Shown here one piece after another: positions 7,290-30,470 of a stretch of 64,000 nt of DNA. How positions within the stretch are numbered: position 1 is the stretch's first letter; each line of letters begins with the position of its first letter. The stretch comes from Chrysoperla carnea (taxonomy: Eukaryota; Arthropoda; Insecta; Neuroptera; Chrysopidae): contig NC_058339.1 in NCBI RefSeq assembly GCF_905475395.1, positions 24,312,001 through 24,376,000 of the forward strand. The letters run 5' to 3'. Both the position numbers and the translations under genes were made by a program. Under the pieces are notes generated by a model, which did not search any database, had not been told where the DNA came from, and saw nothing but the letters and a program-made list of their open reading frames with translations.

Positions 7290-8190
7290 CCTGTCCCTGG
7301 AATTAAGCACACAAGTGATAGCTAGCGAAAAATCGACATCACAACTGATTAGAATGACCCAAAATTAGTGGGTTTCAAAAAAAATTTTAATAAGATCGGA
7401 TCAAATTTGCCTGTATTATCAAAAAAATCGAATTTATTAACTTCATGACGTCATCAGAATCCAAAAAATTTAATTTTGCTCTATCACATCAAAATTTTAT
7501 CCAATTTTGATAAACCAAGTATGTAATCCTACTAAGTTTGGGTCATACTTTCCAAATTTGTGATCAATATTTACCTAGCTCTAATAGGTTTCCAGAAAGT
7601 GGAACCCCGGTTTCGGAATTCAGCATATGAGTGATAACTAGCGAAAAACTGGCATAACAGTTGAAAAGAACAACCCAAAACTAGTGGATTTCAAAAAAAT
7701 TTTAATAAGATGGGATCAGCTTTGCCTGTGTTATCAAAAAAATCGAATTTTTTAACTTTATGACGTCATCAGAATCCAAAAATTTAATTTTGCTCTATCA
7801 CATCCAAATTTTATCCAATTTGGATAAACCAAGTATGTAATCCTACTAAGTTTGGGTCATACTTTTCAAATAGCTAAGCTAGCTAAGCACATAGGTGATA
7901 GCTAGCGAAAAATTTACATCACAACTGAAAATAATGACCCAAAATTAGTGGGTTTCAAAAAAAAATTCCATAAGATCGGATCAAATTTGTCTGTATTATC
8001 AAAAAAATCGAATTTAGAACTTCATGACGTCATCAAAATCCAAAAAATTTAATTTTACTCTATCACATCCAAATTTTATCCAATTTTGATAAACCAAGTA
8101 TGTAATCCTACTAAGTTTGTGCCATACTTTTCAAATTTGTGATCAATATTAACCTAGCTCTAATAGGTTTCCAGAATGTGGAACAGAAGA
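7290..8190 (+). repeat. Tandem array of three ~264-316 bp units, each with TGACGTCA
   Basis: Units begin with GTGATAGCTAGCGAAAAA-like sequence at 7315, 7631 and 7895. Each contains TGACGTCATCA (7446, 7761, 8025), AATTTAATTTTGCTCTATCA and AACCAAGTATGTAATCCTAC. The palindrome TGACGTCA is the CRE/ATF consensus, but there is no evidence of regulatory use here. Related copies in reverse orientation lie at 6145-6270 and 55690-56290. It is most likely the internal repeat of a non-autonomous transposon. Confidence 0.75.
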
Positions 8191-12181: not shown

Positions 12182-12935
12182 GTAATTGCCCAGCGAAGCG
12201 GGTGGGTAGAGTTTCTGAGATATCGAAATGTTTGGATCGATTTTCGTCTGTATCTCAAGAACTATTCGACCAGTCAACAAATGCACTCGATTTTTGTACT
12301 TTTTGGGTCAAAATAACCTTATATACTAACTTTTATCGAAATTGGAGATACAAAAAATTTTTCGATTTTTTGCAATTTTTTTAAGGGATACGTACCCCTT
12401 TGAAAAAATCGAGAAAAACGCAAAAGATAATTTTGTTTGGGAATTTGATGAAACTCGGTTAATGGGGTAATTTTGACCCAAAATGTATAAAAATCAGGTT
12501 AATTTAATGATTGGATGCAGAATTTCTAGGATATCACCATATTTGGATCGATTTTAGTCCGTATCTCAAAAACTATTAGACCAATTAACAAATACACCCG
12601 ATTTTTGTACTTTTTGGGTCAAAATAACCTTATATACTGACTTTTATCGAAATTGGAAATACAAAAAATTTTTCGATTTTTTGCAATTTTTTTAAGGGCC
12701 CTTTGAAAAAATCGAGAAATACGCAAAAAATAATTTTATTTGGGAATTTGATGAAACTCGGTGGATGGGGTAATTTTGACCCAAAAAGTATAAAAATCAG
12801 GTTAATTTAATGATTGGATGCAGAATTTCTAAGATATCACCATATTTGGATCGATTTTAGTTCGTATCTCAAAAACTATTAGAGCAATTAACAAATACAC
12901 CCGATTTTTGTACTTTTTGGGTCAACCAAAAATAC
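12182..12935 (+). repeat. ~307-bp tandem repeat array, copy 1 (Helitron-associated)
   Basis: About 2.4 units. The marker ATTTGGATCGATTTTAGTCC-type sequence recurs at about 12230, 12540 and 12845. Each full unit contains TTTTTGTACTTTTTGGGTCA, a TTTATCGAAATTGGAGATAC block and a GGGATACGTACCCC-type palindrome. The array is preceded by GCCCAGCGAAGCGGGTGGGTA (12189-12209), which resembles the Helitron 3' hairpin seen at 59057-59085. The period is not a multiple of three and frames are broken, so it is not coding. Confidence 0.8.
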
Positions 12936-15574: not shown

Positions 15575-18500
15575 ATGAATAAAAATCAAACAGCAAAAGC
15601 AATTTTAACACCAATGTGTCCCGAAGATGCAAAAACAAGAAATATTAAGATAACAGTGGTTGGATGTGGACAAGTTGGGATGGCCTGTGTTTTTTCTATT
15701 GTCTCACAGGTAATTCATTTCAACTTTAATTATTTTAAATTATATTTCATTCACATTTTTGTCTTTTTTGAATTTTGACAAACTACACAGCATATGTTTT
15801 TAATTAATTTTTAATAGATATTTTCTTAGTTAGTTTTGATGATAATAATTCAAATCACAATAATTTAAAAAGAAAATTTCCATTGTTCTTTTGTAAAAAC
15901 AAAAACAGAAATAAAATCTTCAAATAATAAGAGATATATAACAATACTTTGCACTTAATTAAAATACCAAATTACCAAAGTGTATACAGTGAGCGACTAA
16001 TATAATGGCCTAGATAAAACTAACTTAAAGAAAACAGTTTAAATATCACTACTTTATATATCACGGTGTGATTTTACATTATCGAAACATGAATGCCTCA
16101 TAACTAAATTTACTACAAGCATTGCTTAGTTTATTCTATTGGTTTATTTAAGGTCAAGAAAAATAGATGAAGCATTTTCGATACTGTTCCTCTGCTAAAA
16201 TTGATTTACTTTAAGGAACTTTGCAAACATAAGCAAAGAATGGATTGACCCAGCATAAAGTAATGATATCTTAAAGGATTTTGAAGGAACATGAGACATA
16301 ATCAGCCCTTCCAATCTGTCCAAACGATTGATTTAAGCCCCGCCAATAGGAAATAACAACCGGGCCGATATTCGTTAAAACTCGGGTGAAGATTATCGAG
16401 CATTGAGCCAAAGGCTGCAAACGAAGACTAGCCCAGTGTCTTATAAAAGACACTTGCCTAGGTCTGACAAAATACATCAAGGTGGGAAAGCCTAGAGTGC
16501 TTAACTGAGAGGATTGATACATTAATCGGCATTGCTCCTCTCGACAATCATTTGTTCTGCTTTATGGAGAACTATATTAAAAATGCAAAGCTTAATTCAG
16601 AATAGTATATGAAATGATTCTTCCAGATATTTGCTCAGAAATCCAATAAGTTCCACAGCTTATCGATCAACAAAGCACCTGTTTTATTGAATAAGGTTTA
16701 TTTAAAATTTAAAACAAATTTTTTATCCTTATGCACGTAACATATAACATCTTAAATCGGCTCTTCTAGACATAATATTTTAACAACATTTTAAGCAACC
16801 TTAGCTGTACACATAGAATTTTTTGCAATATTGTTCGCAAAAATAATTGTTTTAAAAAACATCCCGACCGTTCTGCTAGTATACTTGTTAAAATACCTTT
16901 GTGTTGTGACTTTTTATAGTTACAATTTTTAATGTTTATAAAAAAAACCAGAGTTTTTTTATTTTTGTAAAATTGTTTTGTCTGTATTGACTTAAATAAA
17001 TAAACTACTAGTTGGAGTGTCTAAAGTAGTAAGTTCAGTTAGCAGTAAATGGAATGTAACTTACACGAAAACATGTTACGATAAAGTAAATGGTTTTTTT
17101 TTTACAAAATAAAAAAAATTTTAACTTCCAATGTCAGAACAATGTAACTATAATGTGTACATTAGACTTTTTTAAAAGGCGCTAGGGACAATATATTACA
17201 GGCTTCTTATGTCCTCGTAACCATATTGCATCATGTGGCGTGTTTGTTGTTTATAATGTTGTATGTGTATATACTGTCTGTATAAACTTTACCTCTAAGT
17301 ATGTTTGAGAAAGTTCAAAGGCCTGCTAACTAACTATTAATATAAACATTTAATGTATTTATTTAACAAAATATCTGAAAATTAAAAAAAAAAAGTTATT
17401 AATCGCCAGAGCATTATTTGATCCTCATTCAGAAACTTATCCGTAACTCGTTTAAATATTCAAAAATGTTTCTTTATTTTCTAATTCATAATTAATGTGC
17501 ATTTCTTTTCTTTCTTTCAGCCAATTTGTTCTGAGCTTTGTATAATTGATATGAACGACAAACGAGCCCTAGGAGAAGCTATGGATTTATCTGGTGGAAG
17601 TCCATTTACTCGGGGATTTCCTAGAATTGTATCATCGTCAGGTAAACAGAAACTGAATAACTAATAAATATGAAATGTAATGCTAATTTCTTTTTAGATT
17701 ATTGTACGTCTGCGGGATCCACAATTGTTGTAGTAACAGCTGGAGCACGACAAAAAGAAGGCGAAAGTCGTTTAAGTTTGATACAACGTAATGTTGAAAT
17801 ATATAAATGTATTATTCCACAATTAGCAAAAGCAAGTCCAGAATGTATTTTTGTAATTGTTAGTAATCCGTGTGATATACTTGCGTATGTAACAATGAAA
17901 TTGACAGGGTTTCCATCTAATCGTGTTATTGGATCGGGTTGTAATCTAGATTCAGCGCGTTTTCGTCACTTAATTGCACAAAAATTAAGAGTTGCACCAA
18001 CAAGTGTAAATGCATGGATTATTGGTGAAAATGGTGATTCAAGTGGTAAAATTTTATTTTCTTTATTAAACGCCGCTTTTTTCAATCTTTTCAACAAATT
18101 TTGATGTTATTATGTAACTTTTATGTAACGATTAGAGCAAATTCGAGATCATTCATTCACAAGAAATCGCGGACGAAAAAATCTCTACGAACGAAAAAAC
18201 ACACATGCGTCACTTTGGTGACTTGCCGAATATCCGAATCCGCATTTGTGGATATCTACCATAAATAAAAGTTCCAAATAGTATAATAGTAATAATATAT
18301 TATATCATTGTGTCCGTTTCCGTTTCCAAATAGTATAATAGTAATAATATATTATATTATTTTCAAAGATAATAAATTGAATTAAAAAAATTTCAACCTT
18401 CAAATTAAAAACTTTTCAGTCGCTGTTTGGTCTGGTGTAAATGTATCTGGTGTACGCTTATGTGATATAAATCCATCAATTGGTACAAGTGAAGATCCAG

Positions 18501-19458
18501 AAAAATGGAATGAAATACATGAAAAAGTTATAAATAGTGCATACGAAATAATATCTCTAAAAGGATATTCAAATTGGGGAATTGGATTCAGTGTTGCTCA
18601 CATATGTTCTGTAATTGTATCTGATGCTCGTGAAATTGTTCCAGTTTCTACTTACATAAAGGTAAAAAATTTTATTATACTTAATATACAGGCGATGTAA
18701 TTTTTTTAATTTTTATATTTTTTTGGTGGAAGCGCAAGGAAAACGTATATTGAATGACAACTATAAATAGAGAAAGTTATAAATTTCGATTTGGTGGCGA
18801 AAATTAGCAAAGAGTAACATTCATAATAAGAGTAATCACTAGCTAATTCTTACTGATGATGACTACTTGGTAGTCGAAAATACGTATTTTAAAAATACAA
18901 AAAACTGATCTAGGAAATTGGGCAAAAATCGAAATTTATTTCGATATATCCTAGAGTTCTCATTTATTATCTTCGATAATATTTATAGAGAAAGTTATAT
19001 CTTTTACTGTTTCTACCTCTTCCATACAATCAATTCTTGACGGCCTACGATGTTAAATAAGCAAATCTGAGAACTATAACCTGGTTTCAAAAATAAACTT
19101 TGATTGATTAATTCCAACTCCATCAGAAAAAAAAACTTGATATAAAAGGGGTGATAATAATTACTAAATTTAAAAAATATATTTAAAATTATCTGCAAAC
19201 CTTGATAAACTCGGTGCTTAGATTGTATAAAAAGTTTTAATTTGTAATTTAAAAAAAAAAAAATTCTTTTCTTTTCTATTTAAGGGATGCAAACATGGAG
19301 TTGACAAGGATGTATATTTAAGTTTGCCAGTTGTACTTGGATCAAATGGTGTCTTATATATTGTGAAACAAGCTTTATCTCAAGCTGAAAAGAAAGCGTT
19401 ACAAGATTGTGCGAATAACTTGTATGAGTTGCAACGAGACATTAAATTGGATCTTTAA
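15575..19458 (+). CDS. Ldh: L-lactate dehydrogenase paralogue lacking the catalytic histidine (LDH copy 1)
   Basis: Five coding exons join to 339 residues: 15575-15709, 17521-17641, 17698-18045, 18420-18661, 19285-19458 (stop TAA). All introns are GT-AG. The ATG lies 5 nt after an acceptor at 15568-15569, so a noncoding 5' exon lies upstream. The fold is LDH: dinucleotide-binding VVGCGQVG (residues 28-35), the NAD-ribose Asp in CIID (55), Gln104 in GARQKEGES, which marks lactate over malate specificity, Arg110, and Asp170/Arg173 in LDSARFR. LDHs interconvert pyruvate and lactate with NADH in the cytosol. The catalytic His of the GEHGD motif is Asn197 here ([10 protein letters not shown]). The substrate-side Thr of KGYTSW is Ser252, and NPVDIL reads NPCDIL. 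The frame is otherwise intact with good splice sites, so this looks like a retained pseudoenzyme rather than a decayed pseudogene. It is slightly longer than a typical LDH (about 332 residues) because of an extended N-terminus and last exon. Confidence 0.9.
16271..16570 (-). pseudogene. Possible non-LTR retrotransposon C-terminus inside LDH1 intron 1
   Basis: The minus-strand reading CREEQC, then [12 protein letters not shown], then [10 protein letters not shown] recalls the cysteine-rich end and LG-P segment that follow RNase H in some non-LTR elements. The segment is less AT-rich than its surroundings. It lies within the first intron of LDH copy 1, antisense to it. The match is weak and could be coincidental. 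Confidence 0.3.
18271..18356 (+). repeat. Short tandem duplication in LDH1 intron 3
   Basis: A 33-nt segment starting TCCAAATAGTATAATAGTAA occurs at 18273 and again at 18325, 52 nt apart. It is intronic. Confidence 0.7.
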
Positions 19459-22160: not shown

Positions 22161-22167
22161 TTATATC

Positions 22168-22394
<227 letters not shown>

Positions 22395-23887: not shown

Positions 23888-25799
23888 ATGTTCAAATATT
23901 TTGCAGGTACATCAGCGGAAAAATTGTTTTCCAAATTGTCTGATCCAATAACAATAAGCCACAAAAAAATCACTGTGGTTGGAGTTGGATCCGTTGGCAT
24001 GGCATGTGTGTTTAGTTTACTTACTAAGGTAATCAATGAAAAAGAAAGAAAAATTTTTCACTTTTTAGTAAAGTTAATTAATCGCAATTTTGTTCAATAG
24101 AATGTTACAAATGATATAGCTCTCATCGATAAAGATAAAAAAGCGTTGGAAGGAGAGAATTTAGACATACAACAAGGGGCATTATTTTTAAAAAACTATA
24201 ACATCCAAGCCAGCAGCGATGGTAATTATTTTAGTCCGTGGGGGCACCACGGTTTTTTTAAATGATAAATACATATTTGAAACTTCGTGAGTGGCATCCT
24301 TTTGACGAGTCTACTAAAATTTTTTCTACGATTTTTTTCGAAAAGGCTGCGTTTTCAAACGAGCAGGATGATGTCATATTTGAGTTATCGTTCTGAAAAA
24401 ACGCAGCAGGGAATTTGTCGGACACTAATGATCACTTAATAAGATTTATAATTATTAAAAAATAGATTATTTTGTTCGACAAAAATACTGCTCCAATGAG
24501 CTTGTATAACACCTCGAATATGCCGTCAAAACAAATAAGTAATTTAAGCTTTATTATAGACTATTCAATAACAAAAAATTCACAAATTTGCATAATTACT
24601 GCGGGTGCAAGACAAAAAGAAGGAGAATCAAGACTTAATTTAGTTCAACGTAACGCAGATATTTATAAGTCGATAATACCGGAGCTTGTGAAACATAGTC
24701 CAGACACTATATTATTAATTGTTTCGAATCCTGTGGATATACTAACATATGTTGCATGGAAACTGAGTAGTTTTCCAGTACATAGAATAATTGGTTCGGG
24801 TACACATTTAGATACAGCTCGATTTAGATTTTTATTATCACAAAAACTCAAAATTGCACCGAGTGATTGTCATGGCTGGATTATTGGTGAACATGGTGAT
24901 AATAGTGGTAAGAATTGTTGTTATTTTCTAGAAATCTAGGTAATTATATAAACTGGATAAAAACATATGTGAAGTGAAAGTGTAGTGTGAATGATAAATT
25001 ACACCTTAGAAATGGTGTCAACGATTCTATAGGTGAATTCGGCAGGTGTATAATGGTTCTTGTATGCGCAGAATTTATAGTCGCGTCAAAGGATACATAA
25101 AATCGGCAATCTTTGGCAAGTACTCCAGAACAGCTCCGGTTTTCATTATTCTTTTATCAGTATCATATTTTCTGTAAGCCAATAAAAAATACATGTATGG
25201 TAGGCACTAGTAATCGTAAGATTTATCAATTTTTTTTATAGTTCCAGTATGGTCCAGTGTAAATGTATCTGGAATGAATTTAAACGATTTAAATCCAAAC
25301 TTTGGTACATGTGACGATACTGAAAAATGGGCAGAAATGCATAAAGAAGTTGTGGAGAGTGCCGGTACAGTTATTAAATTAAAAGGCTTCACAAACTGGG
25401 CCATAGCTCTTGGCGTAACGGATATTTGTATTTGCATTTTAAACAATTTGAAGTCATTGTGTACCATTTCAACTCTAGTCAAAGTAATAGTTTTTAATAA
25501 AATTGATTTGATTTTTGCTTCTTAATAAGACATGAAAAGTAATTCTGATTTGTAAAAAGAGATGCATATTTTAAAGAAAATTTAATTTTAAAATGATAAT
25601 GGAATTTTTTCATATTTTATTGTTTAATTTTCAGGGATTCTATGGCATTGAAGATGATGTGTTTTTATCACTTCCTGCATCCTTAGGTGAAAATGGCATT
25701 ATACAAGTAGTTAAGCAAAAATTGGAGAAAACCGAGCTGTCTAGTTTTCAAAATAGTGCGAAAATTATAGCCGATATAAATTGCAAAGTAAAACTATAA
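23888..25799 (+). CDS. Ldh: L-lactate dehydrogenase (LDH copy 2), start uncertain
   Basis: Coding exons: 23888 or 23907 to 24028, 24101-24221, 24560-24907, 25242-25483, 25635-25799 (stop TAA). Read from the ATG at 23888 the product is 338 residues. Key residues by that numbering are present: VVGVGSVG, Asp57 (ALID), Gln106 and Arg112 in [10 protein letters not shown], Asp172 and Arg175 (LDTARFR), catalytic His199 in GEHGDNS, and Thr in LKGFTNW. An active cytosolic pyruvate/lactate enzyme is expected. Exons 2-4 have the same lengths and phases as in the flanking LDH copies. The start is odd: TTTTGCAG at 23899-23906 looks like the acceptor used by the sister genes but lies 18 nt downstream of the only nearby ATG. 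Either transcription begins close by and 23888 is used, or an unseen upstream exon supplies the start and ends with one base of a codon. I found no AATAAA close after the stop. The motif IALGV replaces the usual IGLSV. Confidence 0.9.
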
Positions 25800-28468: not shown

Positions 28469-30470
28469 ATGGCATCGAAGCCAACGTATGGGAAACTCTT
28501 TACAGATGTCTCTGAACCTGTGACTAAAACTGGTAACAAGGTGACTATTATTGGTGTTGGGGCTGTGGGTATGGCTTGCGCATTTGCTCTGCTTTCAGAG
28601 GTAGGTGTATACTTTGACTTTGCTTATAGATTTTAGATAGGCTATATCAGAGCTTTATGGATTCAATTTTTTGTACTAGTAAGAGATAAAGACTTAAAAC
28701 AGCAAATCTTATCTTTATTTAAAAAAGTGGTTAACGGAATAATATCCAGGATTTTTGGCTATTGTATTCCCGAATCACTATCCTCGTCACTTACTGTTTG
28801 CTTGCAGATCTCGAGCTTGGGATCAACGAATATACCAATTTTTAAATTTAATGAATATCAACTTTTTGATTCGTGTGACATGTATGTATGACCGACTATC
28901 TCTCTTTACTTACTTGACGTGAAAAAACAAACGATTCCGTAGTCAACACTGTCTATACATGGTATTTAAAAAATTAACTCAGCAAATGGTTTGTTTTCGC
29001 TTGTTTTTGATAACTTAGAGTAAGATACTTATCTAATTTGATATATTAATCAAATGGTGCAGAGATATTTATCAGGACGATTTTGATTACAGAAACAGAC
29101 AAACGATTTAGTCCTAATGGATATGGATAGAAACAAATTAAAGGGGGAAATGTTGGATTTACAACAAGGCGCAGCATTTTTAAGAAATGCTAGAATTCAA
29201 GAAAGTGCTGATGGTAGATATTTTAACGAAATTCAATACTTTGAATAGCTTAAGAACTTATTTCAAACTTGAAACTTTGAATCAATTTATCTTGGAAAGA
29301 CTTGCGGAGAAAATATTTTATTTAAGCTATATTCGAATGTTTTTATATTATCGAGGATAATCGGCTAAACAAATGTATATTTCTTTTGTTTTTTCCCAAT
29401 TTTCGTTCATAAAAACAATCGAAATTAAACTTTGTGTTTTCTCCAAACTCTTCTTTCCACTTAAACTTCTTAAACTTTTCTTTAATTTTCATTGAGCTTT
29501 TATTTTTAGACTATTCCATTACGCGAGATTCGCGTATCATTATAGTAACGGCAGGAGCACGTCAGCGCGAAGGTGAATCACGGTTGGCTTTAGTTCAACG
29601 TAATACGGATATTTTTAAATCAATTATACCAAAACTCATGGAATATAATAAGAATCCTATCCTAATAATCGTTAGTAATCCTGTAGATATACTAACTTAT
29701 GTTGCATGGAAGTTAAGTGGATTGCCAGTACATAAAGTAATTGGCACTGGAACAAATTTAGATACATCACGTTTTAAATATTTAATATCACAAAGATTAG
29801 ATATTGCACCATCTAGCTGCCACGGATGGATTATTGGTGAACATGGCGATAATAGCGGTATGACTTTTTAGTTTAGATTGAAAATATTTATTCAATAAAA
29901 CCACATCTGCTGAATTTAGTGCCCTTAATTTCTTATATTAGCTTATATGGATCAGGCAGCTAAAATATTTGATCGCTAAAATATTTGTTTTAATTCTAGT
30001 TCCGGTTTGGTCGAGTGTAAATGTATCAGGTGTAAGACTGACTGAATTGAATCCAAAAATCGGTACTAAAGAAGATGAAGAAGATTGGCTCAGTTTGCAC
30101 AAAGAAGTGGTTCAAAGTGCTTATGAAATCATCAAATTAAAAGGTTATACATCATGGGCCATTGGTCTCAGTGTTTGCGACATAGTTAGTGGTATTATGA
30201 GAAATACCAATAATCTATATGCACTTTCTACGCTAATTAAGGTACCGTTTTTTTTTTTTCAACCAATAAACCACCGGAAGGCTCAATTCTATGTTTGATT
30301 TACAGGGTTTCCATTGTATTCAAGACGAGGTATTTTTGTCATTACCAGCTGCTGTAGGCGTTGATGGTATTTCAAAAGTTGTTAATCAAAAGTTAACACC
30401 TTCTGAAGTTCAACAATTACAAGAATCTGCAAGAGTTATAGCTGAAGTACAAAAGGGTATACAGTTCTAA
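28469..30470 (+). CDS. Ldh: L-lactate dehydrogenase, canonical copy (LDH copy 3)
   Basis: Five coding exons give 335 residues: 28469-28600, 29093-29213, 29510-29857, 30000-30241, 30306-30470 (stop TAA). The ATG is 19 nt after an acceptor at 28448-28449, so a noncoding first exon is expected upstream. This copy matches the LDH family best: [11 protein letters not shown] at the NAD site, Asp54, [17 protein letters not shown] with Gln103 and Arg109, [23 protein letters not shown] with Asp169 and Arg172, catalytic His196 in [13 protein letters not shown], and [10 protein letters not shown] with the substrate-binding Thr. It should catalyse NADH-dependent pyruvate to lactate conversion in the cytosol. 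Introns are short (492, 296, 142, 64 nt). AATAAA at 30512-30517 lies about 40 nt after the stop. It shares the Asn of GDNS and the LQQGA motif with copy 2, so copies 2 and 3 are each other's closest relatives and copy 1 is the outlier. Confidence 0.95.

Follow-up and report, generated by a model that had tools for sequence, protein, structure and literature searches.

A lactate dehydrogenase (LDH) gene with an asparagine codon at the position of its catalytic histidine raises the question of whether its product is still an enzyme, whether the gene is on its way to decay, or whether it is kept for a role other than catalysis. In the LDH mechanism, His195, together with Asp168, passes a proton and NADH passes a hydride, while Arg171 and Arg109 hold and polarise the substrate (standard LDH numbering). 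Asparagine is incapable of acting as a general acid/base. The catalytic residues are named in the accessible parts of PMC4109310 and PMC11085338. The gene in question, copy 1, is one of three LDH genes (copies 1, 2, and 3) that lie in tandem on the + strand of the window, the whole 64,000-nucleotide stretch analysed here (C3:24312001-24376000, 28.7% GC).

Spliced translation yielded a five-exon gene of 339 amino acids for copy 1 (window positions 15575-19458, + strand). Exon 1 (15575-15709) encodes the N-terminus, including the NAD-binding motif GCGQVG, and ends at a GT donor. Exon 2 (17521-17641) is bounded by AG and GT, and exon 3 (17698-18045) retains the mobile-loop residues Gln104 and Arg110, as well as Asn142, Asp170, and Arg173. 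The codon AAT at 18030-18032 places Asn197 at the position of His195. Exon 4 (18420-18661) reads KGYSNWG, with Thr252 replaced by Ser, and exon 5 (19285-19458) ends in the stop codon. The introns are GT-AG, with acceptors CAG, TAG, and CAG for exons 2-4 and AAG for exon 5; all 339 codons are open, and the single stop lies at the end. The internal exons measure 121, 348, and 242 nt in copies 1, 2, 3, and 4 alike. The earlier note had described an intact LDH gene in which AAT replaces the histidine codon, Gln104, Arg110, Asp170, and Arg173 remain, and the threonine of exon 4 is serine, and this description was confirmed. The ATG context CCAACATG lies directly 3′ of the acceptor-like TTTTACAG, which suggests that an upstream 5′ leader exon is likely. 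No AATAAA was found within 500 nt past the copy 1 stop, and copy 2 also lacks one.

Copies 1 and 2 are separated in part by a TA repeat of 230 bases (22162-22391), and tandem arrays of 303-base units lie at 12208-12925 and of 265-base units at 7631-8136. Pfam searches of ten other long open reading frames of the window, out of 21 listed, gave only two matches, both below the cut-offs, so that no neighbouring gene could be named.

Copy 2 (23888-25799, + strand; exons 23888-24028, 24101-24221, 24560-24907, 25242-25483, and 25635-25799) and copy 3 (28469-30470, + strand; exons 28469-28600, 29093-29213, 29510-29857, 30000-30241, and 30306-30470) both read GEHGDNS at the catalytic site. Exon 1 of copy 2 overlaps the acceptor-like TTTTGCAG, which makes the true 5′ end of that gene uncertain. 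Copy 4 lies on a contig other than that of the tandem (loci L009/L010, C6:22232538-22238010). It shares 79% identity with copy 3, and the introns of the two genes sit at the same positions; a move of one LDH gene between chromosomes, introns included, seems to have taken place.

The genome searched comprised 559 Mb in 337 contigs. Queried with the DNA of copy 1 exon 3, the assembly returned the exon itself (100%), copy 2 (69%), copy 3 (66%), and no other match, and a protein search with copy 1 added copy 4 and MDH-type genes. Among the matches listed in these DNA and protein searches, no second copy, haplotig, or retrocopy of copy 1 was found. The catalytic His is kept in eight of the nine LDH/MDH-family genes among the genome matches listed, a list that may be incomplete; the five MDH-type genes, one of them bacterial-type, all keep it.

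Two of the MDH-type genes merit separate description. A diverged, exon-split MDH (L008/L055/L056), which from its look we take to be mitochondrial-type, lies at about 26.06 Mb on C3, ~1.7 Mb from the LDH cluster, and keeps GGHS. The bacterial-type malate dehydrogenase (L001, C1:139247231-139250647) is 317 aa long, scores above the PRK06223 and MalateDH_bact cut-offs, and is flanked by open reading frames that resemble IS-element transposases. A bacterial-looking threonyl-tRNA synthetase reading frame and a 542-aa open frame matching COX1 share with it a stretch of roughly 0.4 Mb close to the end of C1 (also L073, L076, and L080). The labels of IS element, ThrS, and endosymbiont are our presumption, based on the look of these sequences. 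The region would appear to be a chromosome end rich in mobile elements that includes, or is joined to, DNA of endosymbiont-like character.

Profile searches placed copy 1 within the LDH family. Pfam found LDH domains only, with Ldh_1_N at 137.3 bits and Ldh_1_C at 104.1 bits (cut-offs 27 and 22.6). The NCBIfam L-LDH equivalog TIGR01771 scored 354.4 bits, above its cut-off of 303.55, and the prokaryote L-LDH subfamily model PRK00066 scored 314.8, under its cut-off of 339. By these profiles, copy 1 belongs to the L-lactate dehydrogenases of the LDH/MDH superfamily as a homologue. All five of Gln102, Arg109, Asn140, Asp168, and Arg171 (standard numbering) are present. Sixteen first-shell active-site positions were taken from the MDH list in the accessible part of PMC4109310 and transferred to the numbering of copy 1. 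Copy 1 agrees with LDHB at 13 of these 16, compared with 14, 15, 15, and 16 for copies 2, 3, and 4, and the LDH of PDB 6or9, respectively. Its three differences are at 195 (Asn), 246 (Ser), and 239 (Ile, shared with copies 3 and 4). In copy 2, first-shell positions 237/245 are Gly/Phe, with Tyr in the five other sequences compared. Judged from its sequence, copy 1 lacks at Asn197 the histidine expected of an active L-lactate dehydrogenase, and it combines an intact gene with a missing conserved catalytic residue, as a pseudoenzyme would.

The rarity of the substitution was assessed in an alignment of copies 1-4, LDHB (PDB 1t2f, which we take to be the human protein), 6or9, and 40 confirmed prokaryote LDH-like loci; the search patterns for the prokaryote loci end before the catalytic His. 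The column is H in 44 of the 45 other sequences, with one gap. With copies 1-4 set aside, 37 columns do not vary among the remaining 42 sequences. Copy 1 departs from four of them (V144C, H197N, T252S, and S324C), compared with 0, 1, and 0 for copies 2, 3, and 4. With LDHB or 6or9 as the sequence withheld, 2 of 39 such columns were broken in each case, so that copy 1 exceeds these controls only modestly. With the conservation threshold at 95%, departures numbered 10, 6, 6, and 4 of 51 columns for copies 1-4, and 6 and 5 of 53 for 6or9 and LDHB, indicating that copy 1 is not broadly decayed. At sites where the five other animal-type LDHs agree, copy 1 differs at 27/127, copy 2 at 12/112, 6or9 at 8/108, and LDHB at 4/104; the counts for copy 3 (5/105) and copy 4 (1/101) are lowered by the close kinship of these two genes. 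C189V and G191A were considered as further oddities of copy 1 and were dropped: they stand out among animals, yet no residue is more frequent at either position across the full alignment (34 and 38 of 45).

The changes in copy 1 are not clustered around the seven catalytic residues taken together (p = 0.51, 0.66, and 0.83 for windows of 6, 8, and 10). In a split of the pocket chosen post hoc, the carboxylate side was depleted in changes (p = 0.043, 0.025, and 0.062, same windows), and the hydride/proton side showed no significant enrichment (p = 0.30, 0.22, and 0.16). With post hoc windows of 8, changes at animal-invariant sites numbered 1/24 near the carboxylate-holding residues versus 10/34 near Asn142/His197/Thr252.

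Copy 1 shares 47% identity with copies 2, 3, and 4, 52% with LDHB, and 51% with 6or9. Copies 2-4 formed a clade excluding copy 1 in both trees (UFBoot 91 in each), whereas the placement of copy 1 among animal LDHs received support of 46-58. None of four constrained trees, one of which pairs copy 1 with Drosophila Ldh, was rejected by the AU test (p = 0.11-0.45); of these trees, bp-RELL and c-ELW exclude just the one in which copy 1 is sister to copies 2-4. The Drosophila Ldh tip is a presumed sequence, and the tree that includes it places the prokaryotes beside copies 2-4, with support of 57. Copy 1 has the longest branch among the four LDH genes. A recent tandem duplication as the source of copy 1 was discarded, given 47% versus 52% identity and the clade of copies 2-4 without it. 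By these comparisons, copy 1 is no close sister of copies 2 and 3.

Selection was examined with our own implementation of a GY94 branch model, using 332 codons of the four LDH genes. A single omega for all branches (M0) gave 0.076 (lnL -3814.84). Fixing omega at 1 on the copy 1 branch gave lnL -3847.98 versus -3810.82 when free, a cost of 37 log units; the same test on the copy 2 branch cost 20 (-3832.91 versus -3812.55). In the free fit, the length of the copy 1 branch runs into its upper limit, which makes the omega of 0.0037 for this branch unusable as an estimate. The branch also spans time before the His loss, so that the test reveals long past constraint and says nothing of the present. 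The earlier note had proposed dN/dS on this branch as a check; omega = 1 is rejected, on a branch where dS is saturated and time before the loss is included. The copy 1 coding sequence carries a purifying signal over the whole branch, with dS saturated.

Copy 1 resembles LDHB and the 6or9 enzyme in both domains, the specificity Gln, and the substrate Args, but differs from them in having Asn for the catalytic His, Ser for Thr246 (standard numbering), and Cys for the Val that follows Asn-Pro. The accessible text of PMC12223287 describes Plasmodium LDH2, in which every LDH2 molecule has His in place of Asp168, and whose deletion in P. berghei hampers the formation of male gametes. Like copy 1, it is an extra LDH kept near the main LDH gene with an altered His195-Asp168 pair, so that an altered pair in a kept LDH is already known. 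The pair is altered differently, however, since LDH2 keeps His195 and copy 1 keeps Asp168; LDH2 is also a protist male-gamete protein with an extended specificity loop. UEVLD/UEV3 is another partial parallel, in which an inactive E2-like domain and an LDH-like one form a single protein (PMC12513931, in part), whereas copy 1 has LDH domains only, and no His loss is stated for the UEVLD domain in the portion available. The accessible part of PMC4772804 names Drosophila CG13334 as an LDH gene that the fly has in addition to Impl3 (Ldh), and by description it is thus, like copy 1, an additional LDH gene. In the pseudoenzyme review PMC10211241, as far as its text was available, inactive paralogues regulate in other families and LDH is mentioned only as a crystallin. 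In partial coverage of the literature on LDH pseudoenzymes, LDHs with His changed to Asn, UEVLD, and fly LDH duplication, no LDH without the catalytic His was met.

Several explanations of the Asn codon can be weighed against these results. AAT and CAT are one base apart, and the assembly yielded no second haplotype, so that the species might in truth carry CAT, hidden by a mistake in sequencing or assembly or by an uncommon allele in the animal sequenced. We consider this very unlikely, since V144C, T252S, and S324C are changed in the same gene, and elsewhere in the gene the reading frame is unbroken. RNA editing that restores His was discarded by reasoning only, because A-to-I editing of AAT would yield Asp-like or Ser-like codons, and never His. 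It is also improbable, in our view, that copy 1 still works as a dehydrogenase with residual or altered activity, with the proton relayed by water or another group, or with a different substrate. The retention of the specificity Gln, both Args, Asp170, and Asn142 would suit such an enzyme, as would the Ser at Thr252, a residue that the bacterial-type MDH L001 seems to share (GSAYYAP, read by eye). Plasmodium LDH2 is credited by its authors with LDH activity despite Asp168 being His (PMC12223287, accessible part). However, the conservation of His in the aligned LDH-like sequences and in the five MDH-type genes of this genome argues against it, as does the established inability of Asn to serve as a general acid/base.

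A young loss of function deserves more weight, and is nevertheless unlikely. Here the His change would be recent, and copy 1 would now be drifting, with its frames not yet broken. The length of its branch, its excess of differences at animal-agreed sites over copy 2, 6or9, and LDHB, and the absence of a nearby AATAAA point in this direction, although copy 2 lacks that signal too. The long branch would also fit loosened constraint. On the other hand, the frames, the splice sites, and most residues of the catalytic pocket are intact, and the alteration of several invariant sites suggests more than a single fresh hit. With the single needed His absent, the substrate-holding residues kept, and the frame open, copy 1 is most likely a non-catalytic relative of LDH. 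We therefore lean, with some reserve, towards a retained pseudo-lactate dehydrogenase that would bind its ligands and not catalyse. The earlier note had proposed such a pseudoenzyme, and the intact gene, the missing His, the kept clamp residues, and the purifying signal agree with it; the roles proposed there, of tetramer regulator or NADH sensor, are surmised.

For this retained pseudoenzyme, binding without turnover is the natural prediction, given that the holding parts are kept. Copy 1 would remain able to bind NAD(H) and to grip a 2-oxo acid, and turnover would be lost or very low for want of proton transfer. LDHs are tetramers, and the genome holds three His-bearing paralogues, and on these grounds copy 1 would most likely serve as a subunit that binds ligands and does not catalyse, a step taken with lower confidence. 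In mixed tetramers or in tetramers of its own, it could tune LDH activity or buffer NADH/pyruvate in the cells that express it. A tentative possibility is that copy 1 stems from an ancient LDH lineage, gave up catalysis, and was kept as a dedicated, substrate-binding but non-catalytic subunit, which may set the activity of the three His-bearing paralogues in mixed tetramers, or may report the NADH/pyruvate state.

Copy 1 clears the L-LDH equivalog cut-off with the His absent, which is a caution for annotation by profile. The His is present in every other compared sequence that covers the position, and a kept LDH gene without it would cleanly test roles of the LDH family beyond catalysis, such as tetramer tuning and NADH/pyruvate binding.
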